Positions 1 to 53,406 of a stretch of DNA of 64,000 bases are shown here, piece by piece. Both the position numbers and the translations under genes were made by a program. Below the pieces are notes generated by a model that was not told the DNA's origin, searched no databases, and was given only the letters and a program-made list of their open reading frames with translations. Every line of letters starts with the position of its first letter. The stretch's first letter is position 1. Source of the DNA: Armatimonadota bacterium (GTDB lineage: Bacteria; Armatimonadota; Fervidibacteria; Fervidibacterales; Thermosaccharophagaceae); assembly GCA_025062195.1 (NCBI GenBank), contig JANXAS010000017.1:1-64000 (forward strand). Direction: 5' to 3'.

Positions 1-128
1 ATTCGTTTTGGGCAAGCATTTTCAGTCCAAAGTTCGGTAACGCTGAAAGGGCAGGTGAAGCATTGTTGCTTAAAAATGCCCAAAAATTGGAGAGTATGTT
101 GCCCAGCCTTTTGTTTGTTCTGCAATAA
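1..128 (+). CDS. 3' end of a gene cut by the window edge
   Basis: An open frame (frame 3) enters from the left edge and stops at TAA 126-128, giving about 41 C-terminal residues with normal composition, including the segment FGNAERAGEALLLKNAQK. The pattern (FGN.ERA followed by an amphipathic helix) is loosely like the C-terminus of creatininase-type amidohydrolases, but this is too short to assign. The other plus-strand frames in this stretch look less protein-like. It could be chance; confidence is low. Confidence 0.3.
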   Translation, partial: SFWASIFSPKFGNAERAGEALLLKNAQKLESMLPSLLFVLQ

Positions 129-351
129 GTTAGGTTGGATACTATAGGTTGCATTGTAAAGACAATTGCATAAGAGTGGCTTCAGCCACGGAATTTTTAA
201 AAGCCACAAAATTCAAACGGCAGTATGAATGACATATTTCCAAAAGGTTTCATAGATATAGATGGCTGTTTTTAAATGATATTATGAACTTTAACACATT
301 TTCGTTAACAAATTTTAGGATGGGAATATGACTTGACAAAATTTGTTTGAA

Positions 352-650
352 TTTTTCAGCAGGGCAGTAGCACTGCCCTTTGATTTTTGTCACGATTTTT
401 TCGTTACGATTTTTTCTCATTTCGTAGGGCAAGCCAACTGGCTTGCCGAATTTTTTCGTTCCATTTTTTCGTTCGGGTGGTAACCCAATCCTCCAAACCT
501 TTGTCACGATTTTGTCATTTTGGATAGCATGCCCATGGCGTGCCGATTTTTCCGTCATGTTTTTTCGGTCGGGCAGTAGCCTGACCCTCCGAATTTTTGT
601 CACGATTTCCGTCATTTTGGATGGCATGCCTACTGGCTTGCCGATTTTTG
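352..650. repeat. 97-bp tandem palindromic repeat array
   Basis: Units begin near 425, 522 and 619, a period of about 97 bp, preceded by a half unit from about 352. Each unit has a palindrome of the GGCATGCC-tACT-GGCTTGCC type, a T-rich run, a second hairpin of the GGGCAGTAGCC type followed by CCCTCC, and the linker TTTTTGTCACGATTT. The same modules recur at 845-960, 5225-5345 and, in the opposite orientation, at 56090-56400. No coding potential is apparent. Confidence 0.75.
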
Positions 651-671
651 GCTTTTTCTTTTGCAGTATGC

Positions 672-748
672 TTCGTAGTGAACCATAAAGGGGTAGATTA
701 ATGGCGTTTTCAACGGCACTCCACTTCGTTTCGTGCCTTACTACAAAC
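672..748. repeat. Decayed MITE-like palindrome (family I)
   Basis: A TTCGTAGT left end and a right arm of the CTTCGTTTCGTGCCTTACTAC type flank a short centre. The left arm is poorly preserved. It matches the better copies at 14.7, 49.3, 52.8, 55.5, 59.8, 60.0 and 62.5 kb. Confidence 0.6.
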
Positions 749-844
749 TGCCTCGTAATGAAAGTGCTTAAAGGCAAAATGTCCCTCTGGTCACTCGCAT
801 CAAATTATCTCACCTTGCCCTAAAACGGTAAACTTTTGTTCAAG

Positions 845-960
845 ATTTTTCGGCAGCAGCTTTGCCCTCCAATTTTTGCCACGAATCTTGTCATTTTTGA
901 GGGCATGCCAATTTCGGCAGGGCGATAGCCCTCCAAATTTTTCGCTAATCTGGATTTTTT
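845..960. repeat. Partial units of the 97-bp palindromic family
   Basis: Two hairpins of the CGGCAGGGC-GATAGCCCTCC type, the GGGCATGCC half palindrome, and linkers with TTTTTGCCACGAA and TTGTCATTTT match the array at 352-650 but are rearranged. Confidence 0.55.
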
Positions 961-1095
961 CGTCCCGGTTTTTGGCAAGGTAATAGAACGCCATCAAAGC
1001 ACCAACAAATTTAAGGTAAAGAGTGCTTGAAATTTAGTATACATTCACATTACGATGAAAATTTCATAACATTTTGGTTTATTGCCTTGTGCTCA

Positions 1096-4000
1096 TCATT
1101 CTTTACAATCAAACTCAAGTGCAAGGGCAGTTTTGGCAGGAAAGTTAATTGTTTTGCGGAACTCTAATGGAAAGTCTCCCACCAAATTGCTACCTTGTTC
1201 TGTTATTTCCTTAACTTGTAGCTGCTTCCCTGTCAAGCCATAGCCTTTGCCATCAAAAACGAGTGTTGCCCTCAAGTGTTGGTCGCCGACATTGATGAAT
1301 ATAAGGACAAGTTTATTTTCTCGTGGCAGCTTCCAAGCGCCCGTCAAAATTGCGTCGGTTTCAACCCACCATTCTCCTGCCCATTGCCAATCAGCACGAA
1401 CTTTTGGGATTTTGCCAACCAGTTGTGCCCCACAAGTCACTTTTAAGTGTGAGACTCCCGCCGAAACAGTGGATTTAGATTTGCTTTGAAGTTCGCCCTC
1501 ACTGACTAACTTTGGCGGTCGTGCCATTTCACCAGCGTAAAAGTAGCGCCTTAAATGCCAACGCAACCGAGCAACTTGCCTCAAAAATTCAGCATTATCT
1601 TTCTCACGCACAATGTTCGGGTCAATCCAACCTATTTGCTCCCCGAAGACGAGTTGCTGCCCCGCTTTCATCCGAAGCGCTAAATCTTTCGTTGCGCCAC
1701 CACGATATGCCCGTCCAAACATCTGAATTGCACCACCGTAAACGGCAGGGAAAGCTGGAACTTGCCCATTATGCTGCCAATGCCACGTCAAATAGCCATC
1801 AAACCAGCTCAAAAATGGCTCAGCATTGCATTCGGTAGTTAAAGCCCGTGGCATTGGCGTTTCTCCGGTAGTTTTAACCTCACGGGCATATATGCGTATG
1901 TCATCTCGTATAGCACTCAACATTTGCCAATAGCCTTCATTCCACCATGAACCGCCACCGATTGGATGACCATGAGTTTTGTCAAAGCACAAAGCTGGCG
2001 CTGCAGCAGCGACTTGGTCAATATAGACTGCATTGACACCAAATTCGTTGAACAACTTTAGCACGATTTCGCGAACTTTTTCTTGCCACAATTTTGTCGT
2101 TGGGCACATAGGAGCCAGCTTGACATCGCTACCATCTGATTCCTTGCTGCCATAACTTTCAGTGTAAGGCGTTCCATCCTCTTGCTTTGTTGCTGCTGGT
2201 AACGCAACCTTGCTGAACTGCCAATCTTCCAAGCCTTTATCACGAGTGTCCCAAAGTCGCCCGTTGATATATGGCATAACAAAAACGTTGGATTGTTGCA
2301 ATTCACGAACACCTTTATAAAAATCCTCCTTTGCTGGGAAATAGTGTGGATAATCGTTGTCAAATGGGATTTGGTGCCAATTATACCAATGGAAGCCAAC
2401 TGGCATGCCCATGAACTCAGCGAATTCCTTAACAATCGGCACACAATCCTTTGGAGCACCGCCACCAACTGCCCAAATGCAAAGCTCTTTCATCCATTGC
2501 GGTGTGTCAATGCGTATACCTTCTCTCCAGATCAAAGAAATCGGGAAAAACCGACCCCAAATAAAAATTTCGCCCTTTGGTATGACCAATTTAGGGGACC
2601 ATTTTGCTTCCTTTTGCGCCCAATCTCGGTAAATCATTGCTGCATCAAACCAATCACCACGCAAAATTTGCCATACAACTTTACCTGATTGTTTAAATTC
2701 GTTGCCACCGATGCCAATGTTCGGGACAGGATGCTCAAACGCTAAAATGACTCGCTTTACATCAGGTTCGCTTTTCACTACAGTTTCCTTTGCGCTACCG
2801 TTTGGGTCATGCACACCAACATAAATCCCTGTCATATGTCTCTTGTCCTGTGCCTCGCTATACGCTGCCACAAATTGCATCGTGCACCAACCGTTGGGAT
2901 ACAAACTGCGGTAAGTGAAAGCTCTTCGCCATAGGTTGCGTTGAACTTCACCAGGACCGCGCGGGAAAAAGACTTCAGCGTTTTCACCCAAATCGGCAAC
3001 GGCAATCTGTGGGAACGAGACGCGCAAAAGACTCCAATCATTGGGCAGTTGCGTAATATTAAGCGACCAAAGAATTTGACTGTCTGACGGATTCTCGCTT
3101 TGTGCTAAAGGCTGCCCGATGAATTTGGTGCTCAATTGCCTTATTGTCAACCGTTGGCTAAAGCCAGCAGCATGGATATTGCCAACACCCTTCCTTGAAG
3201 GATTTGTGTTTCGAGTTTCAGTCTGCAGTCGCTGATTGAATTTCTGAGCACCGACTTTAATCGGTGAAGATGACCGCTTTTGAGGCATTTCAAATGAACC
3301 TCTCAAACTCACAAGTATATTTGCTCCAACTTCTTTTGGTCGCTCCCAATAAAGCAAAATGCCATCACCAATTTTGCGCCATCCAACTTTTTGCCAACCA
3401 CTATCGGCGTGCAATTCAATTTCACGCTTAGTCGGCAAGTGACGCAAAGTCAGCGTGAACAACGGTAGCGGATTTTCTGCTAATAATTCACCCTGTTCGT
3501 GGTAACGCACGGGATGAGGTGTAGCGCCGTTTCCTTTAGGTGCTGCTTTGCTGTCGCTTCGTATCGGACTGCGAACCAACGCCAAATCAAACAAACTTTG
3601 CAATCTAATGCCGTCAGCAGTTCGTTCAAATGCAATACCTAAATCGCCAATACTTTCAAACAGCCAGTTGGTGGGAGCTTTACCCCTTGCAAATTGCAAC
3701 GCATCACTGAACCGACCTTTCGCTTCCAACTTTTCAGCGAGAATTAGATACCAAGCGGGCACATTTCCATTTGCTCTCGCAATGGCTTTGCGAATCTCTG
3801 GCAATGTCACGACAACTTTAGCATCGGTTGGCAATTGGTGAAGCATAGAACGAACTACTGCGATTGGGTCATCAAAACTGCCAAGCAGCAACCAAGCTGA
3901 AAAATTTCGCTCAGTTGTTTTCCATTCTTGCCACGCAACATCACCGTGAGCATGAAGATAAGTGCCGTAGCCGCCACGACCGTCATGGAAGAGTGCTCTT

Positions 4001-4905
4001 CCGCTGCGCAAGACGGCGATAATATTATTCCCATCAATTAGTGCGCCCCATTCGGAAAAACCAAAGCTTTTTTGCGACGCTACAAATTCACCTTTCTGAA
4101 GTGGTTCACCACCTGCCCATTGTCTAAAACTTTCATCGGGAAAGTTCAACTCCAAAAAATGTAATTCGTTCCAAGAGAATAGTTCACGCTGCCGCACATT
4201 CGCAGTCACAAAAATCAACGGCAAAATTTGCAGTGGTGCACTCAAATGCGCCCGAAAGTAAAACCACTCATAAGTTGCTTCAGGTTGCGATGTCGGTTGC
4301 TTTCCGTCGGCTTGACAATATTTGGCTTTCACTCGCACTACTGTTGCTATTTCGCCATCGGAAACAACCTGCATTTTCGGTTTCTTGTCATTGCGCAAAT
4401 GGAAACTGCCCAACTTTCGGTGGTGAACTCGGTCGTTCCATACGAAGGTGACAAAAGTTTTGCCTGTTTCCGAAAATTGAATTTGTGACGGCAAACCACC
4501 CATATGAGTCGCATCATGCTTGACAATTAACTGTGGAGTGATCACCGTGCCGTCCCATTGCTCTTGCATTGATGGCTTCGTCGGTTTGTAAATAAGTTGA
4601 ACTTGCCAGTCACCACCGTTAGGAAGCTGCATCAACAGCGTGCCCTTAAGAGGATGATATTCGTCAGGAACAAATTGAAGAGGCACAGAACGACCATTGT
4701 CAAGTAAGGCTTGCAAGTTTTTGGGGCTGAAATTTCTAATTTTTCGCATCTGCAGAATTTGGCTCAAATCAACCCTCGCCATTATAATGCCATGCTTTGG
4801 TGCATTTTGCACTAAAACTAAAGCAACGGGCTTTTGAGCTATCCCGAAAGAAGCAGTGATGCACACTGCTGCTACCAGACTGCACAAGTTCAGTGGCTTT
4901 GTCAT
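1096..4905 (-). CDS. Secreted DUF6259-type glycoside-hydrolase-like protein
   Basis: A 1269-residue exported protein. An N-terminal signal peptide (MTKPLNLCSLVAAVCITA) is followed by several hundred residues of beta-rich sequence and then a TIM-barrel-like region in the C-terminal third. Around residues 955-1000 the motif VNAVYIDQVAAA, then a histidine-rich HGHPIGGGSWW, matches what I know of DUF6259 proteins of Planctomycetes, Lentisphaerae and relatives, which are related to retaining glycoside hydrolases. The aspartate of YIDQ is a candidate nucleophile. The ATG at 4905 is chosen because GGAGGTG lies 6 bases before it; a GTG five codons upstream is part of that site. The substrate is unknown. 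The gene stands alone, 650 bp downstream of the fucosidase operon. Confidence 0.75.
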   Translation of the reverse strand: MTKPLNLCSLVAAVCITASFGIAQKPVALVLVQNAPKHGIIMARVDLSQILQMRKIRNFSPKNLQALLDNGRSVPLQFVPDEYHPLKGTLLMQLPNGGDWQVQLIYKPTKPSMQEQWDGTVITPQLIVKHDATHMGGLPSQIQFSETGKTFVTFVWNDRVHHRKLGSFHLRNDKKPKMQVVSDGEIATVVRVKAKYCQADGKQPTSQPEATYEWFYFRAHLSAPLQILPLIFVTANVRQRELFSWNELHFLELNFPDESFRQWAGGEPLQKGEFVASQKSFGFSEWGALIDGNNIIAVLRSGRALFHDGRGGYGTYLHAHGDVAWQEWKTTERNFSAWLLLGSFDDPIAVVRSMLHQLPTDAKVVVTLPEIRKAIARANGNVPAWYLILAEKLEAKGRFSDALQFARGKAPTNWLFESIGDLGIAFERTADGIRLQSLFDLALVRSPIRSDSKAAPKGNGATPHPVRYHEQGELLAENPLPLFTLTLRHLPTKREIELHADSGWQKVGWRKIGDGILLYWERPKEVGANILVSLRGSFEMPQKRSSSPIKVGAQKFNQRLQTETRNTNPSRKGVGNIHAAGFSQRLTIRQLSTKFIGQPLAQSENPSDSQILWSLNITQLPNDWSLLRVSFPQIAVADLGENAEVFFPRGPGEVQRNLWRRAFTYRSLYPNGWCTMQFVAAYSEAQDKRHMTGIYVGVHDPNGSAKETVVKSEPDVKRVILAFEHPVPNIGIGGNEFKQSGKVVWQILRGDWFDAAMIYRDWAQKEAKWSPKLVIPKGEIFIWGRFFPISLIWREGIRIDTPQWMKELCIWAVGGGAPKDCVPIVKEFAEFMGMPVGFHWYNWHQIPFDNDYPHYFPAKEDFYKGVRELQQSNVFVMPYINGRLWDTRDKGLEDWQFSKVALPAATKQEDGTPYTESYGSKESDGSDVKLAPMCPTTKLWQEKVREIVLKLFNEFGVNAVYIDQVAAAAPALCFDKTHGHPIGGGSWWNEGYWQMLSAIRDDIRIYAREVKTTGETPMPRALTTECNAEPFLSWFDGYLTWHWQHNGQVPAFPAVYGGAIQMFGRAYRGGATKDLALRMKAGQQLVFGEQIGWIDPNIVREKDNAEFLRQVARLRWHLRRYFYAGEMARPPKLVSEGELQSKSKSTVSAGVSHLKVTCGAQLVGKIPKVRADWQWAGEWWVETDAILTGAWKLPRENKLVLIFINVGDQHLRATLVFDGKGYGLTGKQLQVKEITEQGSNLVGDFPLEFRKTINFPAKTALALEFDCKE

Positions 4906-5556
4906 TGTTATCACCTCCACTTATTAAAAGTAGCGGTCAAGTTTAGGACGAATGGTTGAAGGCTAATCTGCCGATGTGCCGAATTTCAGCAGCTTATTGC
5001 AGAATAATCAGATTACTGGACAATGAATCCTTTCATTTCTATTCATAGCTCTTTATCTCAAAGTTTTTAGAAACTTACTTGGGACACAGTCTTAAAAATG
5101 AGACGGCAAATTTTGGGAAAATTGGGGGCTTTTCCCCCTCTTTGTCTCAAATGTTTTTGTTAGCTATCTTTTCCAATTCATGCTATGTCCTTTAGCCCGT
5201 AGTTGATGACGCATCCATTTGAGATTTCTTGGCAGGGCAATAGCCATGCTCTCCGATTTTTTAGTTAACTTGTAGGGCATGCCTACTGGCGTGCCGAATT
5301 TTTGTCCTAATTCTCGGCAGGGCAGTAGCCTGCTCCCTAATTGCACCAACGAACTTTTGAGCAAAGAGCAGCGAATTTTTTAAAGCCACAAGGCTATTTG
5401 GGGTAATTTTTGTGGACGGACTATTGTCCGTCTCTACAAAATAATGCCAATTGCGTAACTCATATACGATACGAGCCATTCATTTTGATTTCTAACCCGA
5501 AGCCGAAGACTTTTCGTGCATTTCGTATGCCATTATCGTCATCAATTGCAACTTGC
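4906..5556. other. Intergenic region with palindromic repeats
   Basis: No gene seen. It separates the DUF6259 gene from the fucosidase gene. Modules of the 97-bp family and the flank sequence of family I (AACTTTTGAGCAAAGAGC at about 5352) occupy about 5170-5480. Confidence 0.65.
5225..5365. repeat. 97-bp family modules joined to a family I flank
   Basis: Contains GGCAGGGCAATAGCC, the palindrome GGGCATGCCTACTGGCGTGCC split around its centre, GGCAGGGCAGTAGCC, and then CGAACTTTTGAGCAAAGAGC, which normally flanks the MITE-like element. The core of that element is missing. Confidence 0.6.
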
Positions 5557-8076
5557 TCATTTTGCTGATATTATGTAAACTTCTCCCGGCTTTGTCTCAA
5601 ATTCTATCATGTAAAATTTTGGCAATTTAACCCATTCTGGCGAATTTTTGCTCAAAGCGATGAACTTTGCCGGGCGCTGCGGTTTGAGCAGCGGGTTAGC
5701 AATTTCGTCTTTTGGCTCACGCGCTTCTGCGCCTTCAACTCTTAAAGGCACATGTGCACGAATGCGGCAAACGCCACCCAAGCGCGAGCGAATGGTTGCT
5801 CGCTCCAGCTTTCCATCACGCCAAGAAATGTCAACCTCAAAACCGCCACGAGCCTTTAAGCCCTTGACATAACCATTTTGCCACGCATTCGGCAATGCAG
5901 GCAAAAGATGCAGCGCACCGTCATGGCTTTGCAGAAGCATCTCAGCAATTGCAGCACAACCTCCAAAGTTTCCGTCAATTTGGAATGGCGGGTGGTTGTC
6001 AAATAGGTTTGGCAAAGTTGACCTGCGAAGGAGCAATAGCAAATGCTCATATGCTTTTTCGCCGTCAAGTAAACGAGCGAAAAGGTTAATAGTCCAAGCG
6101 CGACTCCAACCAGTTGCCCCACCGCCGCGGGCAAGCCGATACTCCAACGATTTGCGAACTGCCATCGCCAACTCGGGTGTCCTCAAAGGCGAAATTTGTC
6201 GTCCCGGTTGCAGCCCGAACAAATGTGAAACATGGCGATGACCCGGTTCTGGTTCGTCAAACTCTTCATGCCATTCAAGCAATCTTCCGTCACTGCCTAT
6301 CTTCAGTGGCTCAAGTTCGCTTAGGCGCCGCTCAAGTTCGGCGCACAAATCAGCATCTATGCCGAGCAACTTTGCCGCTTCAATGCAGTTACAAAACAGG
6401 TCATGGATGATTTGCAAGTCCATTGCACTGCCGATGCAAAAACTTGCCACTTGACCTTCTTTCGTGCGGAAAGCGTTTTCTGGCGAAAGCGATGGACAGG
6501 TTGTCCATCGTCCCGTCTTCGGGTCGCGAACCATCCAATCCAGCAGGAAGAGAGCCGCTTCGCGCATGATAGGGTAAGCCCATTCCAAAAACTTTCGGTC
6601 GCCCGTGAACAAAAAGTGCTCCCACAGATGCTGGCATAGCCAAGCCCCACCCATAACCCAAAAGCCCCAACGAGGTGCTGCATCAACGGGAACAGTTGCG
6701 CGGAAAATGTCCGTATTGTGGTGTAGAACCCAGCCGCGACAACCGTAATGCGCTTTCGCAATCTTGCTGCCCGGCTCAACCAATTCGGCGATCATGCGGA
6801 ACAAAGGTTCGTGACATTCGCTCAAGTTCGTTATCTCTGCAGCCCAATAATTCATCTCGGCGTTAATGTTCGTTGTCCACTTGCTTCCCCAAGGCGGATT
6901 AATTTGGTCGTTCCAAATGCCTTGCAAATTCGCAGGCTGAGTTCCCGGTCGGCTGCTGCAAATTAGCAAGTAGCGACCGAACTGGAAGTAAAGGGCAATC
7001 AAGCCCGGGTCTTCTGCACCCTTTTGCACCATTCTCAACCGCTCGTCTGTGGGAACTTGCTCCAACGCTTCATCATGCCCCAAATCAATGTCAACTCTCC
7101 TGAACAATCGCTGGTAGTCGGCAATGTGGTCGGAACGAATTTGCTCGTAAGTTTTGCCTTGAATCGCCGCAAAGATTTGAGCGCAACGCTTATGAGGGTC
7201 GCCAGATATGTCCTTTGGATTGCGGTAACTTGTGGCGGCAGTCAAGAAAATCGTCGCTGCATCGGCATTTGAAACTGTCAAGGAATTGTCAGTGACCTGA
7301 ACTTGACCACCTTCTGCATGAGCCGTCAACCAAACTTCAAAGCGAATTCCAGCCCCCGGCAAATCCGTTTGGCTACCGCGAACTTCCCCATCTCCAATCC
7401 ACTGACCTCGCAAAATGAGCGAATTTTCGCTGCCCTTAAAGGCTTCACGGTGTTTGTGCGGGGTTGTCAGTGTTGCATTGAAACTCACTTGCTTGGGCTT
7501 ATTGGCGATGATGCGGATGGCAAGGATTTGGTCAACTGCGGAGATGAACATTTCGCGGGCAAATTCCACATCACCGATTCGGTAAATTGTTCTTGCGATT
7601 GCTTCGTCCAAGTCCAACTCCCGCCGGTAATTTTCTGGCTCGGCTGTATGAGGGAATTCAAGCCACAAATCGGCGAGCGGCTGATAAGCCATCAACCTTC
7701 GGAATGGGGCATAAACTTTGTCGCTGACTTTCACAACGCCCATCATAAACCTATCGGCGATTTGTTCGGCTTCGCGATACTTGCCTTCAAAAACGAGTTG
7801 GCGAATTTTGTCAAGGTAGCGGAAAGCATCGGGGTTGGTTGGGTCGTATGGATAACCTGACCACATTGTGTCCTCGTTGAGTTGCAACCTTTCTTTCGCA
7901 ATTCCGCCGAAAACCATTGCGCCCAACCGTCCATTGCCCAATGGTAATGCTTCGTTCCAATTTCTGGCAGGTTGGCGATACCATAATTTCCAATTTCTCG
8001 GTTCGTTTAATGATGCCATTGTGACCCCGAATTTTGCAAGTAACAATGCGACTCCCAAATCCAATAATACGTTCAT
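5557..8076 (-). CDS. GH95 alpha-L-fucosidase
   Basis: An 839-residue glycoside hydrolase of family 95, which removes alpha-1,2-linked L-fucose (some members act on galactose) by inversion. The N-terminus reads [19 protein letters not shown], the family hallmark, followed by the (alpha/alpha)6 barrel. Residues equivalent to those studied in Bifidobacterium AfcA (N421, N423, E566, D766) are present: N403 and N405 in [12 protein letters not shown]533 in SLSPENAF and D701 in IDGNFGG. A weak signal-like N-terminus precedes residue 25. The ATG at 8076 sits 6 bases after GGGGGTG; the GTG at 8085 overlaps that site. The gene starts 27 bp after the upstream gene ends, so the two are probably co-transcribed. 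Confidence 0.92.
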
Positions 8077-8103
8077 CTTTGCCACCCCCTTGAATTTTTG
8101 AGT

Positions 8104-11100
8104 TCATTTCAAATTTATTACATATTTTGCTCCGTTCACAATTGTCTTAAACCACACCAAATCCAATTTTGGCTTCAACTCAACATCACCCAAAATTTTC
8201 CCATTTTTGTCGAGAACGATTGCTTGATTTACACCTTTAAAGTTTCCCTTTATCCCGAAGGTCTCAGCGACCCTATTTAATCTTAGCCCAATCTCAAATA
8301 TTTCGTCTCTCGGATGGACGATTACACTTATTGAGCCATTTTCCGGTGTGACGATGACCATTCCAGATGTTATGACCTCTCCGAAGTCAATCAGTATTTG
8401 CTTGAAATTCACTCGCCCCTTCAGACTTGGCGGTTCTTTGACAGTTATTGGCTCAAATGAGACCATTTCACCCTCAACAACTATTGTGCCAACGCGATAT
8501 CTCATACTTCCGTCATCAGCACCTTTTAATCTTACTCTCCCTAAAGTGTCATAAAGCCCAAGCCTAATTTCGTATTTCTCGTCGGGCAAATCAGTTGGAA
8601 CAACAACTTCATAAGGACCATCAACGATTGTGGAATTTTCTTGCCAATTCTTTGTGCTTTCCTTTGGCTTGTGATCGTGTTGGAATACTATGCCATCTTG
8701 ACGCTTTGAGACGGCGAAGTTGATGAAATGGACGAAAACTATCAAATCACGCCCAGTTATTTCTGCCAAGTTGCGCCTGCCAACTTTGAAGAAGTAGGTT
8801 ATCCTAAACCTTCGTCCACCGATTCGTTCAACTTTGACTGATGGCTCAACATCGCAGATTGCTTCAATTGATGGCGGGAATGAGCGTCCGTTAGCGAAGA
8901 TGAAAGGTTTTGGTTTTCCGGTCAAATCTCGGCAATAATCAACAATCATGCCAGATTTCTCATCAATCGCTGTAAATGCTTCCAAGCCCTCAGCGATTGC
9001 CCAAAAGCCAAATTGTGGCAATAGCCTCTTGCGAGCATTGAAATCAACCCCCCATAATTCCCCAGAATTTGCCCAAATTCTCAGCCCAGATTCGTATTCA
9101 ACGAAAACGCTTTCAATCGGTTCATTCATCGCTATGGCTATAGAAGATGGCACAAGTTTTTTATCTTTACCAATTCCATAAAGTATCCTTCGCACTTTGC
9201 TTGCGCAATATCTTGCCTGAATCGGTCTGACAAGATAGTATTCTTTCAAAACCCAATCAATTGCGTGCCAAAGCTCTGTTGGGACAAAACCTGCATGTCC
9301 AAAGGCAATTTCCATCGCACGATACTTGTCAAGTTTTTCTGGGGATGGCAAACCATACCAATAGCCTTCAGGGTCGTCTTGCCACCTTCCCCAATAGCCC
9401 ATGCCATGATTTACCTGTTGAACATGAATTTTGAGCAGGTCAAAGTCAAGAAGCCATGGTGCCCATTCTTTGCCGTCAACTTGCGCCTCAACTCCATCCA
9501 CCAAGCCAGCCCACCAAAAATGCTGCCATCCTTCGCCAAAAAGCGGGCCTTTATGTGCCTCGCGGCCAACTTTGAATAGCTCCAAATTCCCCTTCATTCT
9601 GCCGGCAAGCATTGCGGCGTCTGGTTCATTTGCATCACAATCAAGGTGAAGCCAAGGCGGGGCACAGGAGTTTACATCGTAAAATGCAGCGGTCGTTCCA
9701 TATCGGCGATGAATTTCGTTTGAATATATTCGTGCATATTTCGCCATCGCCCAGTTTTTGTATGCGTAACTTTGCTCACCGGTGCCCTCGTTAAACCATG
9801 CCTTTCTCATTGTCCCATCGGGATTTAGCGCAACTTCCCTCTCATTCCACTCGTGGGATTTTGGGTAAAAATCAATGTAATTTTCGTGAAGGGCGAAGAG
9901 CCAGCCAGCATCACGACACGCTTTTGAAAGGGCAATTGCACCCTCATCGCCACCAAGTTGCTCGTTTGCTGGGACAGTCGTCGGAAGATGGCTATCATAG
10001 CCGTATCTTTGCCAAACATGCTTTAACATAATTGCACGGGTTATGCCATATGTGCTGAGTTCACGAACCCATTCAGCGTCTCTAAGCAAATGTCCACCCC
10101 AAATGTCAAAAACAATCCTGTCGGAAATTTCACCAAAGTATGGTGATGGTTCCCATGGGATGTTGCGGAGGACTTCGGGAAATTCGTATGAGACAGTGAA
10201 AAGGCAAACTTCATTAACATCGTTTCGTCTTCCGTCCGTTTTGCGCTCATATATTACCGAACTGCCGTCAAGATATGAGCCATTTGACTGAGTGAAATCG
10301 GTAAAAACGGATGCGAAGGCAGATTGCGCTGGCAAGTAATACAAATGAGTTGCGAAAAGGTATGGGACAGTTATATATCTGCGCAATTCAGCTATTGGAA
10401 CGCCAAAATTGATATGGCTTATCCAACCGCCGTTTGATGTGAAATGGCAAAGTAATGTCTTTCCCTCAATCCAAAAAGTGCTTTTCCCATTAAAGTCTTT
10501 CCCATTACATCTAAATGAATAAGAAACTGTCAACTTATCTTTAGCGAATGAAAGCGCTTTGGCATCAATTACTTTTGCGACACCTTTTTCGCCCTCAACT
10601 CTTCCATTAGCGTAGGCGATGAGCTTTGGAGCATCGTCAATCCAAACCTCAACAAATGCCGGAAAAACTTCCCTTCGTGGTTTAACTATGTATCGTATTT
10701 CGCAGTCCTCACCATCGTAGACGAAACTGAAGGTTGCGTCACCGATTTGTCGCGAAAAGTTTTTGTGAGTGTATCTTGTTGATGGCTTGACGCCAAGCCT
10801 ATGGTCATTTGACAACCCTTCAAGTGTCTCTCGCCTTACTTTCGGAAAGCGCATCTTTTTGCGGACTCCTTCCACCAAAATTTTGGGATCGCCCCATAAC
10901 GAATAATCCCAGCCTGCATCGTTTTTAGGACCTGCATTAACCGCCAATGTTAAGACAAATTCTTTTCCAGATAGGGTGCTCAAGTCTATTTCGTGCCATT
11001 CCCATTTGTCAGATTTGACATGTTTTTTGAACTTTTCATCGCCGTTTATTAGGACAATGAATGTGACACCGTCACTGCCCTTCTGGACATCTTTGTCACG

Positions 11101-11451
11101 CATCATAGCAAAACCGAAGACAAATTTAGCTTTTGCACCCTTCGGCAATAATAGACGATAATCAGCAAATGTTGAGCCGCCGCCTCTTCGCCATGGGCAA
11201 TGCATGAGCAATGTGGGTATTCCATCCTGTTCACGCCATGGAACATATGAAATTCCCGCAACTGGCTCAAAATGCCCGCTCCATCCAAGCCCCATATTGA
11301 CCATTTCTTGACCAAAAATTTGGTAACGGACTTGGTAGTATCCTATCTCAATCAGTTTTGTCGTTTGCTCAACACGCACTGGCGATAGTTCTTGTCCGAA
11401 TGCTAATGGTGTAAAACCAATGGCTAATGCCATAAGTAGACTCAACTTCAT
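8104..11451 (-). CDS. Secreted GH101/DUF5696-like TIM-barrel protein
   Basis: A 1115-residue exported protein with signal peptide MKLSLLMALAIGFTPLAFGQ. Residues about 20-195 look like an NPCBM-type carbohydrate-binding beta domain. A TIM barrel follows: GYDSHLPTTVPANEQLGG, LFALHENYIDFYP, AAFYDVNS and FGEGWQHFWW. By analogy with GH101-type retaining enzymes, D592 (FYDVN) is a candidate nucleophile and E640 (GEGW) a candidate acid/base. A beta-rich C-terminus closes the protein. The family could be DUF5696 or an unclassified relative, so the substrate is not known. The start follows AAGGAGGTG by 6 bases. It is followed 27 bp later by the GH95 gene. Confidence 0.75.
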   Translation of the reverse strand: MKLSLLMALAIGFTPLAFGQELSPVRVEQTTKLIEIGYYQVRYQIFGQEMVNMGLGWSGHFEPVAGISYVPWREQDGIPTLLMHCPWRRGGGSTFADYRLLLPKGAKAKFVFGFAMMRDKDVQKGSDGVTFIVLINGDEKFKKHVKSDKWEWHEIDLSTLSGKEFVLTLAVNAGPKNDAGWDYSLWGDPKILVEGVRKKMRFPKVRRETLEGLSNDHRLGVKPSTRYTHKNFSRQIGDATFSFVYDGEDCEIRYIVKPRREVFPAFVEVWIDDAPKLIAYANGRVEGEKGVAKVIDAKALSFAKDKLTVSYSFRCNGKDFNGKSTFWIEGKTLLCHFTSNGGWISHINFGVPIAELRRYITVPYLFATHLYYLPAQSAFASVFTDFTQSNGSYLDGSSVIYERKTDGRRNDVNEVCLFTVSYEFPEVLRNIPWEPSPYFGEISDRIVFDIWGGHLLRDAEWVRELSTYGITRAIMLKHVWQRYGYDSHLPTTVPANEQLGGDEGAIALSKACRDAGWLFALHENYIDFYPKSHEWNEREVALNPDGTMRKAWFNEGTGEQSYAYKNWAMAKYARIYSNEIHRRYGTTAAFYDVNSCAPPWLHLDCDANEPDAAMLAGRMKGNLELFKVGREAHKGPLFGEGWQHFWWAGLVDGVEAQVDGKEWAPWLLDFDLLKIHVQQVNHGMGYWGRWQDDPEGYWYGLPSPEKLDKYRAMEIAFGHAGFVPTELWHAIDWVLKEYYLVRPIQARYCASKVRRILYGIGKDKKLVPSSIAIAMNEPIESVFVEYESGLRIWANSGELWGVDFNARKRLLPQFGFWAIAEGLEAFTAIDEKSGMIVDYCRDLTGKPKPFIFANGRSFPPSIEAICDVEPSVKVERIGGRRFRITYFFKVGRRNLAEITGRDLIVFVHFINFAVSKRQDGIVFQHDHKPKESTKNWQENSTIVDGPYEVVVPTDLPDEKYEIRLGLYDTLGRVRLKGADDGSMRYRVGTIVVEGEMVSFEPITVKEPPSLKGRVNFKQILIDFGEVITSGMVIVTPENGSISVIVHPRDEIFEIGLRLNRVAETFGIKGNFKGVNQAIVLDKNGKILGDVELKPKLDLVWFKTIVNGAKYVINLK

Positions 11452-11583
11452 TACATCCACCTCCTTGAAAATGTTGCCCATCACGAGCAACAGTTGCTCA
11501 AAAGTTAATACCGTAGTGTGTTTGTAATGTGCTGTCAATATATTCAACAAATTAGCGGAGCCATAGCATACAGCTTTTTGAAT

Positions 11584-12663
11584 TCATTTCTCATATTTGC
11601 CATATTTTTTCGCAAGTTCAATGACAAATATATAATTTTCAAAGCTAACTGTTGGCGGAATTGAGTGGTCAGAGTGATAGATGTATCCACCGCCTTCTTT
11701 AGCAACCGTGATTTTGCTTACTACTTCCTCTTCAATCTTGGCCTTTGAGCTGCTCATGATATCTGTGCTTATATTGCCAAAGAATGTGATTTTTGTCCCA
11801 TATATTGGCTTCAATTGGCGGACATCGTTTCCGCAGCGCGCCTCAAGCGGTTGGATGCAATCAAAGCCAGCTTCAATGAAAAGCGGCAATAGTTGGCGAA
11901 TATCGCCATCGCAATGGAGGATCAGCGCCATCCCATTTTCATGGCAGAATTTGGCAATCTCTTGGTGAAAAGGCAATATAAATCTCCTATAATAATTTGG
12001 CGAAAATAATGGACCATTCTTGTAGCACATGTCCGAAAAGAACCATAACCCGTCAAAATTCATCCCAATTCTCCGGGAAATTTTCAGCATCCCGATTACG
12101 AATTCGGTGCAATCTTTTAAAACATCAATGACAAACTCTGGTTCCTCAACCATTGCCGAAAGACCCCTCTCAAATCCGACAACATGCTCCAGAAAGAACC
12201 ACGCAGGCTCTATCGGGCTAATTACTGTGAAGATTCCCGCACTTTTTGCCTGATTATACTCTTGCCAGGATGAATCTGTTATTCTTGATTCGTCCGGGAA
12301 AAATTTCTCCCTAAATTTGTGCCAATCTGAGCGATTTTTTACCAAGTAATCAATTCGGGAGGGCGGTGAGAAGCTAATACGCCAGTCCTTGAATGCTTTT
12401 ACAGTTGCACCAAATTCGTCAACAAAAGTTTGGAATCTATCGGTTTCTTTCAAGACTTTTCTTGGCAACCTAAGTGAACAATCAAAATGCACTATGCCAA
12501 TTTTATCCATCCCCAGATAGTCGGCGGGACTTATGCCCTCCGGTAAACCCTCTTTATGCCATCTTTCAATCGTTTCTGGCCAATAAGAGATGTCAACTAT
12601 CGGGACCATATCTGGCAATCCAGTGCGCATTAGCGCCACTCTCAGTCTTTCACAAGAATCCAT
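11584..12663 (-). CDS. UroD-fold protein (uroporphyrinogen decarboxylase / methyltransferase family)
   Basis: A 359-residue protein of the URO-D superfamily, which includes haem-pathway decarboxylases and cobalamin-dependent methyltransferases such as MtaA and MtbA. Visible signatures are ALILHCDGDIRQLLPLFIEAG, IQPLEARCGNDVRQL, ITFFGNIST and the closing GGYIYHSDHSIPP. The N-terminus differs from true HemE (no RxPVWMMRQAGRY), so a haem role is unlikely. Similar proteins are common beside sugar-degradation genes in Armatimonadota, Planctomycetes and relatives; a methyl transfer role is an inference. It lies 57 bp downstream of the DUF6785 gene and 132 bp upstream of the GH101-like gene, so all four may form one operon. 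GGAGGAGG precedes the ATG. Confidence 0.85.
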   Translation of the reverse strand: MDSCERLRVALMRTGLPDMVPIVDISYWPETIERWHKEGLPEGISPADYLGMDKIGIVHFDCSLRLPRKVLKETDRFQTFVDEFGATVKAFKDWRISFSPPSRIDYLVKNRSDWHKFREKFFPDESRITDSSWQEYNQAKSAGIFTVISPIEPAWFFLEHVVGFERGLSAMVEEPEFVIDVLKDCTEFVIGMLKISRRIGMNFDGLWFFSDMCYKNGPLFSPNYYRRFILPFHQEIAKFCHENGMALILHCDGDIRQLLPLFIEAGFDCIQPLEARCGNDVRQLKPIYGTKITFFGNISTDIMSSSKAKIEEEVVSKITVAKEGGGYIYHSDHSIPPTVSFENYIFVIELAKKYGKYEK

Positions 12664-12719
12664 TTTAAGCTTGCCTCCTCCAAAGACGATGGCCGCATTA
12701 TTTGGAAATTTCGGAGATT

Positions 12720-14636
12720 CTACTCAAAAACCACACGAAAATGGTATGGCCATCTATCCTTAAATATTGGGCTTAATATTCCGCCCCAAATTACGCCAGT
12801 CATTAAATAATGCCCCAAAGAAATGCCCAGAAATAGCGGTATTAATTTCCGATATAGACCCATGCCACCATACCGCAATATTAAGCCTTTTATTGCCCAA
12901 ATAAACATTGTCGGGAACCAATACGGACAATGATGGCTATAAGCGTAAGCTAATGGAAAACCAATAGGATGCAACGGAAAGCTTGGGAAATTTCTCCTAA
13001 GCCAGGCTAAGGTTGCCGTAGCAACAAGCCCATAAACTGTGAATCCCATCCTCCACCTATCTGGCGGCATAGGATTGCCCAACATTTGGCTTAAAAGACG
13101 GTAGTCCTGAGCTGCAACATAGGTGCGATAATCTGCCGACCCAGGTGCACCTTCCAAAAAATTTGCGCCTCGCCTGTAATATGCCTTTAAGTGCGTAATA
13201 AAAGCCGCCCATAGACCGAAAATAGCCCCAGCAAATGCAAGAAACTCCATAACCCCATTGGGGAATGCAACTTCGTTTGAAATCTTGGCCGAATCAGCAG
13301 CATATGCCCCATTCAAGTTTAGCAAAAAATGCCTTGCAACCCAAAATAAACCAGATAATATGACAAGGCTTTTCAAGCCGCCAAGGCGAAGTAAGCCACC
13401 AATGCCAAGTGTGTAGTGCAAAAAATCTCGCTGTGCGCCATAAGGATAAACCCACGAATATGGCATACCTGCTTCAGCTCTAATTCTACCGTATGTGATG
13501 ACAAACATAGTCAGCACAAGGTAATATATGATTGCGATCGGGATTGCCATACCTGAGACCACCATCCAAACAATGGCAATTACACTGCCAATGGCAAACA
13601 AGCATAATGATGGCTTACTTTGCTTGAATATGCCATTTTTCCAGCCGCGATAAAGCAAAATAAAAGCTATTGCCAAATATCCACCAACGCTTTGCGAGTG
13701 CGGAAACGGAAAGGAATCACCGATTGTCATGATCGATGGTATTTCCCAGCCAAAAATCCCAATACTAATTAGCGAAAACAGCTTTAAGATAAAGTAAAAA
13801 AACCATGTTGAGAAAAGGACTTCTTGAGTCACAAGGTAACCAAACCCAACACCTTCCATAAGCGGGAAGATCATCAGCGGGCGAAGAGCGCTAAATGGGC
13901 GTTCGGCGAAGAATGGTGCCAAATCCCACCATCTTCTTACCGGACGAAATAGGGATGTGAGCATCATTAATCCGGTTGGTAATGTTCCAATTGCCATTCC
14001 AATCCATACAATGGGAATTGAGAAAAATCCCGAATTATTCGCCCCGTAAACTATCTGGATTGGCAATTGTGCAAGTGGGAAATTGAGCCTCTCTGCCCTC
14101 AGCCATTGTTGTGTAAACATCCATATTGCCCCGCATCCAATTGCCCACAGAGTTATAAAGAAAAATGTCCAAAGGATTAGCGGTAAAATCCAAGCATCCC
14201 ATGGTATATGCCCGCTCATGCCTTCAAAGAAACCACGAACTATAACGCTATCCTTTGGCGCCCACCAATTTGGAACCAATGTCCAGAATTCCTTCAACCT
14301 GTTATCAGGCATGGCGTAGTAAAATGAAGCCACCAAACTCGGGAAAAAAGAACGGACTCCGCCGTATGTCAATGGAAGGATTGAAAAACACGCAAGTATA
14401 TAAAATGCTAATATTTCTGATCCGCTAAGCTTTAGCCAACGATTCGTTAGAATAAGCAAACACAATGCCAATAGGACTGGAACTGGCGGGTTGCCGCCAG
14501 CGATATTTGAAGCGCCGGTGTAAAGTTCAGAATAAAGAACCCAAACATTTGTGAGGATGACGAAGCAAATCCAAATTATAGTGACAAAATGCCATCTAAT
14601 TATGGTTAGCGGCTCTTTTAAAAGCACAGATTGCAT
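12720..14636 (-). CDS. DUF6785/DUF6784 multi-pass membrane protein
   Basis: A 638-residue integral membrane protein with roughly 14 hydrophobic segments and a conserved look typical of the DUF6785 plus DUF6784 pair (for example LRAERLNFPLAQLPIQIVY after the early helices, IRAEAGMPYSWVYPYG near the middle, and NFLEGAPGSADYRTY before the last part). These proteins are widespread in Armatimonadota, Planctomycetes and Verrucomicrobia and have no established function; gene context suggests transport linked to sugar catabolism. The ATG at 14636 follows AGGGTG; a GTG four codons upstream is less likely. It heads a minus-strand run with the UroD-fold and glycosidase genes. Confidence 0.75.
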   Translation of the reverse strand: MQSVLLKEPLTIIRWHFVTIIWICFVILTNVWVLYSELYTGASNIAGGNPPVPVLLALCLLILTNRWLKLSGSEILAFYILACFSILPLTYGGVRSFFPSLVASFYYAMPDNRLKEFWTLVPNWWAPKDSVIVRGFFEGMSGHIPWDAWILPLILWTFFFITLWAIGCGAIWMFTQQWLRAERLNFPLAQLPIQIVYGANNSGFFSIPIVWIGMAIGTLPTGLMMLTSLFRPVRRWWDLAPFFAERPFSALRPLMIFPLMEGVGFGYLVTQEVLFSTWFFYFILKLFSLISIGIFGWEIPSIMTIGDSFPFPHSQSVGGYLAIAFILLYRGWKNGIFKQSKPSLCLFAIGSVIAIVWMVVSGMAIPIAIIYYLVLTMFVITYGRIRAEAGMPYSWVYPYGAQRDFLHYTLGIGGLLRLGGLKSLVILSGLFWVARHFLLNLNGAYAADSAKISNEVAFPNGVMEFLAFAGAIFGLWAAFITHLKAYYRRGANFLEGAPGSADYRTYVAAQDYRLLSQMLGNPMPPDRWRMGFTVYGLVATATLAWLRRNFPSFPLHPIGFPLAYAYSHHCPYWFPTMFIWAIKGLILRYGGMGLYRKLIPLFLGISLGHYLMTGVIWGGILSPIFKDRWPYHFRVVFE

Positions 14637-14732
14637 TTTTGTTGCCACACCCTGTGCAATTTTTCAAAAAGACAACAAAAATTTAGCCAATACCGTTCCC
14701 CCAAAATTGCCCTTTACCCAAAAGTTCGTTTG

Positions 14733-14844
14733 TTCGTAGTAAGGCACGAAGCGAAGCGCCGTAAAAATAGGGCACAAGACATAGGACATTGGACATTGGA
14801 CAATTTTTGACGCCACTTCGCTATCGCTTCGTGGCTAACTACGA
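14733..14844. repeat. MITE-like palindromic element (family I), inverted orientation
   Basis: Arms TTCGTAGTAAGGCACGAAGC and CGCTTCGTGGCTAACTACGA enclose a variable centre with GGACATTGGACATTGGAC. The flank CAAAAGTTCGTTTG precedes the left arm, as in other copies. It lies just past the end of the acetylesterase gene. Confidence 0.75.
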
Positions 14845-14866
14845 GCATTCCCGACAGAGAACAAAC

Positions 14867-16420
14867 TCACTCAATTGGCATATCAGTGCGGAATGGAGAT
14901 GCTGGCAATCCCTCCTTGTTATACAAATTGCAATCCGGGTTGTCAGCCCATGCATACCTAACTGCAACTGGCTTGTCAACTTTCTGGCTCCAGACAACCA
15001 CTGTATCTCCGTCAATCTCAGCCTCTGCCCAAACAAACTTTCCATCCTCGCCAGAGATTGCGAAGCCTGTCAGCTTTTCATCTTTTGCTACAAGTCCGCT
15101 GCCGACATGTTTGAAGTATATGCGTATCTTGCTGTTCTCAACAACCATCCTATCATAAATTGGTCCAGAGTAAACAATGCTTTCGCCATAAGCGATCGCC
15201 CTTGCAGCCAATGAGAGCCTTTTCCCGACATCTTGCTTATTTTTCGGGTGGATATCGTTTGCCTCACCGATGTCAATTGCCACAGCCATGCCAGTCCTCG
15301 GCACCTTAAGGAGGGTCAAAAGTTGAGCCTCTCTCAATTCAGCCCAAGCACTTTCGGATGGTTCTGGCTTGCGCTGCATGAAATTAGCAAGTTGGACGAA
15401 CAAAAATGGGAAGTCTATTCCCCATGCTTTTCGCCAATCGTTGATGAGTGCCGGAAAAAGCTTGCGATATTGTGCAGCCCTGCCCGTATTTGACTCACCC
15501 TGATACCAGATGACGCCCTTTATAGCAAACTTTGTCAATGGCGCAATCATGCCATTAAAAAGTCCACTCGGTTGCCAAGGGTGCCCCGGTCCCATAGGTG
15601 GATTTGGTCTCCTTGGAATTGGTTTGCCCTCTTCCTTTGCTTTGCGTGCTTCCTCTTCCCACTGCTTTAGCCTCTCTTCATATCGCTTTAATGCCTCAGG
15701 ATATGCTTCAACCACCTTTTTCCAGTTGTCCAAAATGACTCGCAATTCCGGCTCCAATTCAAGTGTTGGTGTGCTTGTCCAAGATTCAGCTGGCGTTCCA
15801 CCCCATGCAGCCTGTATCATGCCGATAGGCACTTTAAGATGTTGATACAGCTCTCGTGCAAAAAAGTAACCCACCGCGGAGAAATTGCGAACGGTCTCTG
15901 GCGAACAAGCTTTCCACTCACCTTTTGGATCATCAACCGGCACATCGCTCACGACCTTCCTAACCATGAACAGGCGTATGTTCGGATAGTTGGCATTTGC
16001 GATTTCCTGCTCAGCATTAGCTGAGTTGGCTACTGACCATTCCATGTTTGATTGTCCGGAGCAAATCCACACATCACCAATCATGACATCACGAACTCTC
16101 ACCGAACTCCCATCATCACTTGAGACGGTGAGTTCGTAAGGACCGCCAGATTGCATCGGTGGGAGATAAGCTTTCCATGCACCATTAGCTGAAGCTGTGC
16201 ACCTTACCTCTACTGCTTGTTTTCCTTCCGAGGCATTGTCTTGTGGAGATAGCCTTATAGTTAGGCGTTCATTCGGCGAGGCTTCACCCCACACTGCCAC
16301 ATTTGTTCCACGCTGTAGCACCATGCGGTCGGAGAAAAGCGATGGCAATTTGATGTCGGCATTTACAACGCTGCGTGCAAAAACACATATTAACAAAGCC
16401 GCTGCCCATTTTACCCTCAT
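14867..16420 (-). CDS. Sialate O-acetylesterase family protein (SGNH hydrolase)
   Basis: A 517-residue secreted carbohydrate esterase. A signal peptide (MRVKWAAALLICVFARSVVNA) is followed by a beta-sandwich start (LPSLFSDRMVLQRG) and an SGNH/SASA catalytic domain. The nucleophile is Ser124 in CSGQSNMEWS; the conserved block VIWYQGESNTG carries the oxyanion and structural residues; the Asp-His pair is in ANDIHPKNK. The family removes acetyl groups from sialic acids, xylan or other acetylated glycans. The ATG at 16420 is chosen because AAGGGGTG lies 6 bases before it. It is separated from the DUF6785 gene by 230 bp holding a repeat, so it is probably its own unit. Confidence 0.9.
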   Translation of the reverse strand: MRVKWAAALLICVFARSVVNADIKLPSLFSDRMVLQRGTNVAVWGEASPNERLTIRLSPQDNASEGKQAVEVRCTASANGAWKAYLPPMQSGGPYELTVSSDDGSSVRVRDVMIGDVWICSGQSNMEWSVANSANAEQEIANANYPNIRLFMVRKVVSDVPVDDPKGEWKACSPETVRNFSAVGYFFARELYQHLKVPIGMIQAAWGGTPAESWTSTPTLELEPELRVILDNWKKVVEAYPEALKRYEERLKQWEEEARKAKEEGKPIPRRPNPPMGPGHPWQPSGLFNGMIAPLTKFAIKGVIWYQGESNTGRAAQYRKLFPALINDWRKAWGIDFPFLFVQLANFMQRKPEPSESAWAELREAQLLTLLKVPRTGMAVAIDIGEANDIHPKNKQDVGKRLSLAARAIAYGESIVYSGPIYDRMVVENSKIRIYFKHVGSGLVAKDEKLTGFAISGEDGKFVWAEAEIDGDTVVVWSQKVDKPVAVRYAWADNPDCNLYNKEGLPASPFRTDMPIE

Positions 16421-52639: not shown

Positions 52640-52848
52640 GTGGCTCAAGGATGGGCACAATTGCTTCGGGCATAATTTGTAGCGAGCCAAAAGTGATGAC
52701 ACATGAAAATGTGACAAAGGACAAATTTGGACGTCACTTCGCTAACGCTCCGTGGCTAACTACGAACCTTAACAAACAGAGTTTTGGCTCGGCAATAGCC
52801 TCGCCTTTCCAGTTTTGTGGCTAACTACGAGCATTGTCGTAAAGGTGG

Positions 52849-52945
52849 TTCGTAGTAAGGCACGAAGCAAAGTGGAGTGCCGTAAAAAATGTGACAAAGG
52901 ACAAATTTAACGCCACTTCGCTAACGCTTCGTGGCTAACTACGAA
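52849..52945. repeat. MITE-like palindromic element (family I), inverted orientation
   Basis: 97 bp from TTCGTAGTAAGGCACGAAGC to GCTTCGTGGCTAACTACGAA, with centre TGTGACAAAGGACAAATTT. The outer flank AACAAAAAGTTTGTGATAAA follows. Confidence 0.8.
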
Positions 52946-52959
52946 CCTTAACAAAAAGT

Positions 52960-52988
52960 TTGTGATAAAGAGCGAATAATCCTATAAT
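52960..52988 (+). promoter_or_regulatory. Sigma-70-type promoter overlapping a repeat end
   Basis: TTGTGA (52960-52965) and a perfect TATAAT (52983-52988) at 17 bp spacing, 47 bp before the lipoprotein start. The -35 box lies in the conserved outer flank of the family I repeat. Confidence 0.6.
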
Positions 52989-53035
52989 GTAGGCTTGAAT
53001 TTGCTTTGGCAATTTGAATAAACTCTGATTGGAAA

Positions 53036-53404
53036 GTGAAAACTAAGCGACGAATAATTGTATGGTTGGGATTGATGTCCTTAATAATGCTAAACGGTTG
53101 TGGTGGCAACCTCAACCAGCAAATTAGTATTGGTGTGCTGACAGTGATTTTTCACTTCCCGCCCAAAGGGTATATTACACCTGAAACTGATAGAGTGCGA
53201 GTTCAAGTTAGCGTAGAAGGTTTGACACAACCTTTGGAACAGGTAGCGGAAAGACCATCTCAAGATGGTGGAGAAGTGCGCGTCACTTTTAGTGATGTTC
53301 CAATTGGGAATAAAACTGTCAAGGCGATAGCTGAGAACAGATATGGAACTCAGGGCGCTATTGGCTCAAAAGAGGCAATTGTTTTGGCGGGAAAAAGACC
53401 GTAG
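53036..53404 (+). CDS. Small lipoprotein, first frame of a two-frame gene
   Basis: A 122-residue product starting at GTG with a lipoprotein signal (MKTKRRIIVWLGLMSLIMLNGC; lipobox ending in Cys22). The rest is a beta-rich Ig-like domain (residues about 30-115). The frame ends at TAG 53402-53404, just after GGGAAAA (53389-53395). Continuing in the -1 frame gives an uninterrupted protein through the next entry, so the two are probably one gene joined by frameshifting, by a mutation or by a sequencing error. The ribosome binding site is weak. Function unknown. Confidence 0.6.
   Translation: MKTKRRIIVWLGLMSLIMLNGCGGNLNQQISIGVLTVIFHFPPKGYITPETDRVRVQVSVEGLTQPLEQVAERPSQDGGEVRVTFSDVPIGNKTVKAIAENRYGTQGAIGSKEAIVLAGKRP
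53371..53395 (+). promoter_or_regulatory. Candidate -1 ribosomal frameshift signal
   Basis: The heptamer G-GGA-AAA (53389-53395) sits in the zero frame as X-XXY-YYZ. An SD-like AGAGG (53371-53375) lies 13 bases upstream, the arrangement that stimulates -1 slippage in bacterial dnaX. A stop in the zero frame follows at 53402. No obvious downstream hairpin was seen. Confidence 0.4.
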
Positions 53405-53406
53405 TA

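Follow-up and report, generated by a model that had tools for sequence, protein, structure and literature searches.

The closest described systems are corrinoid-dependent methyltransferases of the uroporphyrinogen decarboxylase (UroD) superfamily. In the cited part of PMC13222342, MtvB, OdmB, VdmB, and MtoB are O-demethylases acting on the substrate side (MT1 enzymes), CdmB is an MT1 of the same superfamily that works without zinc, and some O-demethylases contain zinc. The O-demethylase logic outlined in the cited part of PMC8630106 comprises an MT1, a corrinoid protein, an activase, and a second methyltransferase. According to the cited part of PMC10418091, a His-Cys-Cys ligand set marks the S-methyltransferases of the superfamily, and in its O-methyltransferases one or both Cys give way to carboxylates or non-coordinating residues. 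We analyzed a 64,000-nucleotide stretch of an Armatimonadota genome (contig JANXAS010000017.1 of assembly GCA_025062195.1, positions 1 to 64,000; hereafter the window), which carries an ordinary-looking glycan operon with one UroD-superfamily protein, P0001. The clade to which P0001 belongs is linked to corrinoid systems, has been little studied, and shows an altered ligand set. The function ranked highest for P0001, held with moderate confidence, is that of an O-demethylating, corrinoid-dependent MT1.

Compared by description, not by alignment, P0001 resembles MtvB, OdmB, VdmB, and MtoB in its superfamily, in the MT1-type system logic, and in not keeping the His-Cys-Cys site of the S-type enzymes. 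However, those enzymes use aromatic methoxy compounds, whereas P0001 is encoded in a glycan operon; MtoB has its partners in its own operon, whereas those of P0001 would act in trans. CdmB, which acts on chloromethane, and CmuA are likewise MT1 enzymes of the superfamily, and zinc is not required in CdmB (cited part of PMC13222342). They differ from P0001 in their haloalkane substrates, and the CdmB site consists mainly of aromatic residues. With MtaA and MtbA, P0001 shares the fold, the His ligand at the barrel end, and relatives linked to MtaB and corrinoid proteins. In contrast, their two Cys are replaced by Asp and His in P0001, which also scores far under the MtaA/CmuA cut-off, and the organism lacks MtaB and carries the partners outside the operon.

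The profile score and whole-model Foldseek and VIA-align matches placed P0001 in the UroD superfamily (PF01208). P0001 reached 22.5 bits against the HemE equivalog TIGR01464 (cut-off 302.95) and 49.8 bits against the MtaA/CmuA model TIGR01463 (cut-off 235.4), and these family cut-offs ruled out both a haem UroD and a strict MtaA; four MtaA-type models outscored the hemE model. The sole PDB sequence match at E up to 0.01 was the methylcobalamin:coenzyme M methyltransferase 4ay7 (E 1.3e-3), which was also the top Foldseek match (E 2.8e-14) of the AlphaFold model (pLDDT 95.9, pTM 0.92). With VIA-align, the model matched haem UroD chains at Z 25-27 and 4ay7 at Z 24.0 (root-mean-square deviation (rmsd) 3.5, 309 residues aligned); because these scores are nearly equal, the fold alone cannot choose between a decarboxylase and a methyltransferase. 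In the alignment with 4ay7, its H-I-C and C, which we take to be the zinc ligands of MtaA, fall on H250-C-D252 and H333 of P0001. Where MtaA and MtbA have the His-x-Cys...Cys zinc site, P0001 reads H250-x-D252...H333. With D252 and H333, P0001 agrees with the Cys-replacement criterion for a corrinoid O-demethylase MT1 (cited part of PMC10418091), a criterion that is not specific, since many paralogs of unassigned function also lack the Cys pair. Because CdmB is zinc-free and other O-demethylases hold zinc, as the cited part of PMC13222342 has it, the P0001 site need not be metallic.

For the phylogeny, 135 UroD-like proteins were aligned and 132 entered a midpoint-rooted FastTree tree, in which P0001 fell into a 33-member clade with a support of 98. 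The ligand set was H-D-H in 24 members and H-C-H in nine; the outer His was kept in all 33 and, by our count on the alignment, HSDHS at 330-334 was kept in 27. By record title, the clade extends outside the phylum of the window to Kiritimatiellaeota, Omnitrophota, Planctomycetes, Verrucomicrobia, Methylacidiphilales, Phycisphaeraceae, and Clostridiales. The window's own genome gave 25 UroD-like matches, which correspond to 24 genes because two share a frame; 23 of these genes entered the motif table, and the UroD of contig C128, within a 1013-residue frame, was left out. None of these 23 aligned paralogs reads H-C-C, and their ligand sets vary (H-D-H, D-D-H, H-C-H, H-D-N, Y-L-D, and others). 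The C128 frame (C128:3040-6081, in L103) is a possible fusion that includes a UroD-like domain. Elsewhere, in locus L120 (G024:C156, 5388-15079), eight UroD-like genes follow one another in tandem, all on the same strand and next to a DUF6259 gene; their ligand sets are D-D-H, H-H-L, H-C-H, H-D-H, H-H-S, H-D-S, H-D-H, and H-D-D.

Members of the P0001 clade have corrinoid-system genes as neighbors, defined as a corrinoid protein, MtaB, a PF02574 protein, or the activase RACE within 5 kilobases (kb). Such a neighbor was found in eight of 29 loci with clade members. Since L142 and L143 had been fetched via corrinoid or RACE matches, they were set aside, which left six of 27 loci, all retrieved purely for their UroD similarity. 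The chance expectation, for which we assumed 6.3 such genes per 4 Mb, was 0.52 loci (P of six or more, 1e-5). As three of the genomes (G007, G021, and G034) belong to one genus, the six loci represent four independent lineages (P of four or more, 0.0017). In these three genomes, MtaB (PF12176) directly adjoins P0001 relatives of 48-50% identity. In L133, from a genome of the window's order (G002), MtaB, a corrinoid protein, and a homocysteine S-methyltransferase (PF02574) are encoded in a single run with three UroD-like proteins, one of which is 43% identical to P0001. The verrucomicrobial locus L065 brings together a corrinoid protein, a PF02574 protein, a clade member, and RACE, and in L033 a corrinoid protein lies 86 base pairs (bp) from a clade member.

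Two further arrangements were observed. L142 (G029:C41, 6385-13374) carries RACE, a DUF1638 protein, a corrinoid protein, and three UroD-like genes (H-D-H, H-C-N, and S-D-H). L145 (G017:C2, 7550-10689) carries MtaB followed by a 583-residue UroD-corrinoid fusion with H-C-C intact, which resembles a fused MtaA-MtaC; match coordinates indicate the same arrangement in G030.

Co-occurrence was scored in 151 genomes of the window's phylum, with PF14574 taken as RACE. Scoring of PF01208 ended at about 12 per genome, so that higher counts are lower bounds. RACE was present in 103 genomes, and 102 of these had three or more PF01208 matches, compared with none of the 48 RACE-negative genomes (36 had zero matches and 12 had one or two). 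The sole RACE-positive exception, G119, had one match; apart from it, the taxonomic families of mixed state (f2, f9, f13, and f22) showed the same pattern. In a set of 41 genomes, PF02607 lay in a frame of 205-300 residues, a length that suits stand-alone corrinoid proteins, in 23 of 30 RACE-positive genomes (our count), and in the 11 RACE-negative genomes it lay in frames of 320 residues and more or was absent. A first look gave more than 100 UroD-like candidates in two of the 151 genomes.

The window's own genome contains one clear stand-alone corrinoid protein, on contig C170 (L084, 1462-2109). This 215-residue protein scored 219.4 bits against TIGR02370 (cut-off 215.3) and carries DLHDIG at residue 100, in agreement with the DxHxxG motif of this protein type; a second PF02310 match stayed below its cut-off. 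Two RACE genes lie on C83 and C159, and the C83 cluster (L139, 7228-11066) holds, in a row, a pterin-binding methyltransferase, RACE, and a homocysteine S-methyltransferase. There are three matches to MTTB, another family of corrinoid methyltransferases, with C170 and C155 as the listed places. MtaB was not found in this genome by profile search, nor was a full-length MetH. The corrinoid protein and activase expected alongside an MT1 are thus encoded elsewhere in the genome, and beside some clade relatives. A model that read the window from its letters alone (the sequence-only reading) had proposed that the UroD-fold enzyme moves a methyl group and had advised looking for a corrinoid protein gene. 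Two activases and one stand-alone corrinoid protein are encoded in the genome, none of them at the operon locus; methyl transfer is upheld at the family level by the clade site and by the MtaB, corrinoid, and RACE neighbors, whereas the locus itself has no partners.

The MT1 function was ranked highest because the site has no Cys-Cys pair, because MtaB and a homocysteine methyltransferase fill the other roles in G002, and because partners are available in trans. In the proposed mechanism, P0001 would act in the cytoplasm on a small substrate brought in from outside, removing a methyl group from one of its oxygens with a His-Asp-His metal or acid/base site that stands in for the His-Cys-Cys of MtaA, and would pass this methyl to Co(I) of the C170 corrinoid protein. 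The methyl could then reach homocysteine or tetrahydrofolate via the PF02574 and pterin-binding methyltransferases of C83, with RACE alongside. The substrate may be an O-methylated sugar, freed by the secreted GH129/101-like and GH95 (glycoside hydrolase) enzymes of the operon and imported by its DUF6785 protein. The order of the genes, the fold, the clade, the ligand residues, the neighbors in relatives, and the RACE co-occurrence are observed; corrinoid use by P0001, O-demethylation, partners in trans, DUF6785 as an importer, and a glycan substrate are what we infer; it is the operon that makes an O-methylated glycan plausible. Rhamnogalacturonan II, which has 2-O-methyl sugars, acetyl groups, and a side chain with L-galactose, would fit the enzymes encoded here.

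Several observations weigh against this assignment. Genes for a corrinoid protein, RACE, MtaB, or a second methyltransferase are missing from the operon, and a single clear stand-alone corrinoid protein would have to be shared by the MTTB enzymes and all 24 UroD-like proteins. Because no full-length MetH was found, the C170 protein and the C83 cluster may together be a methionine synthase in split form, with RACE maintaining its activity; methionine synthesis and demethylation could share the corrinoid protein. No corrinoid-system neighbor occurred within 5 kb in 21 of the 27 clade loci, and in the MtaB operons the clade member may be an acceptor-side enzyme. The structural model is as near to haem UroD chains as to MtaA. 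The RACE co-occurrence is a whole-family result, due in part to shared ancestry; it speaks for the family and not for P0001 alone, and corrinoid use by just a part of the paralogs would be enough to produce it. Finally, the neighbors of the own-genome UroD genes show no strong glycan bias among the best 25 of 135 families. For this tally, 74 neighbors were listed and four DUF6785 proteins were left out; the Pfam matches of the remaining 70 formed a mixed set, and the idea that these UroD genes as a group lie in glycan loci was rejected.

Among the alternatives, the one that survives best, although unlikely, is a non-corrinoid TIM-barrel hydrolase, lyase, or isomerase that uses a His/Asp/His metal site in its UroD scaffold to act on a sugar. 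It stays in play because the operon has no corrinoid partner and the paralog sites are variable. The wide differences in ligand sets among the 23 aligned paralogs suggest changed chemistry, and glycoside-hydrolase-like genes lie near some UroD relatives (GH123 in L126 and GH42 in L031, both with clade members, and GH42 in L056, with another clade). Against such an enzyme, the clade adjoins MtaB, corrinoid protein, homocysteine methyltransferase, and RACE genes in several lineages, and none of the 48 RACE-negative genomes has three or more PF01208 matches.

We consider it improbable that the RACE and corrinoid signal comes only from methionine synthesis or MTTB, with the UroD expansion as a bystander of a shared lifestyle. 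MTTB occurs in 55 of the sampled genomes, all of them RACE-positive, and the RACE, pterin-binding, and homocysteine methyltransferase genes are clustered in the window's own genome, as this explanation would have it. However, 47 of the 48 RACE-positive genomes that lack MTTB reach at least three PF01208 matches, UroD genes are physically linked to corrinoid genes, and MetH-sized B12-domain proteins are present in some RACE-positive genomes (G007, G021, G034, and G029).

Slightly less probable still is an acceptor-side role (MT2, MtaA-like), in which P0001 would transfer the corrinoid-bound methyl to an acceptor other than a thiol, or act in MtaA's place. MtaB, a substrate-side enzyme, stands beside clade members in G007, G021, G034, and G002, where MtaA would be expected, and the UroD-corrinoid fusion occupies that place in G017 and G030, with H-C-C read in G017. 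P0001, however, lacks the third Cys ligand, G002 and L065 already have a PF02574 homocysteine S-methyltransferase as the acceptor enzyme, and the window's genome has no MtaB. Uroporphyrinogen decarboxylation in haem synthesis is strongly disfavoured and has next to no probability: although VIA-align gave Z 27.1 to 4zr8_B (rmsd 3.0, 311 residues aligned), the hemE score is far under its cut-off and below four MtaA-type models, and P0001 is one of 24 paralogs and lies in a glycan operon.

The operon around the putative MT1 (Table 1) consists of four confirmed minus-strand open frames, encoding the DUF6785/6784 protein, UroD-fold P0001, GH129/GH101-like P0003, and the GH95 enzyme. Start codons were those with the best ribosome-binding sites in our reading of the start scan, and they leave gaps of 56, 132, and 27 bp; because the gaps are short, the four genes likely form an operon. 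Open frames and family matches bear out the strand, the order, and the short gaps given by the sequence-only reading. It had placed the four genes within positions 8104-14636, which holds for three of them, whereas the GH95 gene lies outside, at 5557-8076. The acetylesterase it mentioned nearby is the SASA gene, found 230 bp upstream of the operon and possibly separate from it; the DUF6259 gene may be a separate transcription unit. By inspection, the N-termini of the P0003, GH95, DUF6259, and SASA proteins are signal-peptide-like. P0001 has no hydrophobic segment and P0002, the DUF6785/6784 protein, has nine. In promoter and terminator scans, promoter-like sites came at about the shuffled rate, and the scans were not used.

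The label GH101-like, which that reading had given to P0003, has two sources. The DUF5696 match is barely over its cut-off (26.9 against 25.6 bits, 90 of 612 profile positions) and is the only family listed for P0003 at E up to 0.001, with no GH101 profile listed; the second source is similarity to the closest solved relative, the alpha-N-acetylgalactosaminidase 5wzn (E 2.3e-8), presumably a member of GH129 and thereby of a family we take to be related to GH101. P0003 aligns with 5wzn across 135 residues and keeps the Asp at D435, presumably the catalytic residue, as D625 (numbered from the longest frame, 11550). Unlike a close homolog of 5wzn, P0003 is a remote match and far longer. The GH95 protein has a full-length catalytic domain above the cut-off, and its nearest solved structures are 7kmq, 4ufc, and 2rdy. 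Since GH95 includes alpha-L-galactosidases besides alpha-L-fucosidases, a fucosidase label is uncertain.

Synteny profiles were built from the window proteins (E 1e-5) and applied to 14 loci that hold close relatives of P0001; 11 of these come from genomes of relatives, and the others are L026, L027, and L028. The order DUF6785, UroD, DUF5696-like, GH95 occurred in none of the 14, of which L027, L028, L119, L126, and L129 are short contigs, and these profiles found no DUF5696-like or GH95 gene in any of them. A DUF6785 gene lies 3.5 and 6.3 kb from the P0001 relative in L122 and L125, on the other strand, and DUF6259 is present in L120, also one of the 14. The three closest DUF6785 relatives fetched (50-64% identical) have no UroD gene within the fetched stretches; a fourth, partial relative (G001:C13, 50%) was left out. 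The sequence-only reading had held that a lack of conserved synteny would speak against its glycan locus, and the absence found here counts against the glycan-operon part in that sense.

In the window's own genome, 18 DUF6785 matches, two of which share a frame, correspond to 17 genes. A UroD gene lies within 500 bp of four of these 17, with one C146 UroD gene counting for two; 0.49 were expected (simple Poisson, p 0.0012). In a set of 40 loci, the pair appeared in one, L056, with a D-D-H UroD of another clade, where it sits among GH42- and GH65-type genes. The DUF6785-UroD pairing is a mild recurring association, and the gene unit itself is not conserved. A PDB profile search gave no credible relative for P0002, whose AlphaFold model, built from two sequences, had a pLDDT of 35.7 and was not used; a PDB search gave no match for the DUF6259 protein. 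Searches of open-licence PubMed Central found no paper on DUF6785, nor on the H-D/C-H clade or corrinoid demethylation of sugars.

Table 1. Features of the P0001 locus, in window positions.
Feature	Positions	Strand	Details
SASA carbohydrate acetylesterase (PF03629)	14867..16420	-	E 8.3e-22; start 16420 after AAGGGG
DUF6785+DUF6784 membrane protein P0002, putative transporter	12720..14636	-	DUF6785 E 5.1e-92; DUF6784 E 4.5e-23
UroD-superfamily protein P0001, 359 residues	11584..12663	-	URO-D 77.0 bits, cut-off 23.9; GGAGGAGG ribosome site
P0001 residues H250-C251-D252	11908..11916	-	End of strand 246-250; position of the MtaA zinc ligands H-x-C
P0001 residues H330-S331-D332-H333	11665..11676	-	H333 on the third zinc ligand (Cys) of MtaA
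DUF5696-like / GH129-GH101-like glycosidase P0003	8104..11451	-	Start 11451 after AAGGAGG
GH95 enzyme, complete	5557..8076	-	Catalytic domain E 2.5e-185, over cut-off
DUF6259 protein	1096..4905	-	Pfam match; 651 bp downstream of GH95

Window positions 1-16000 and 52000-64000 have a G+C content of mostly about 43-46%, and most of the middle has about 48-54%; the operon lies in a low-G+C end, except for GH95 (51%). Elsewhere in the window, the frames at 54110-55318 and 56748-57695 (403 and 316 residues) have no Pfam match at E 0.001 and are followed by a sulfatase gene at 58156. A 1425-residue protein at 24924-29201 gave both a match to an SpoIVB-type S55 peptidase domain and beta-propeller-like matches.

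Many genomes of the phylum carry at least a dozen UroD-like proteins. We regard it as a doubtful but conceivable extension that these large sets consist mostly of corrinoid-dependent enzymes that demethylate aliphatic O-methyl compounds, methylated sugars among them, and feed one or a few shared corrinoid hubs kept active by RACE, and that the P0001 operon is a locus for polysaccharide utilisation that brings along an O-demethylase for its glycan. Annotation of such proteins would go no further than "uroporphyrinogen decarboxylase family". The near-perfect co-occurrence with RACE, together with a clade that lies beside MtaB and corrinoid proteins, gives this unassigned family a testable hypothesis, B12-dependent methyl removal, for which methylated glycans found in nature, rhamnogalacturonan II for example, are possible substrates.

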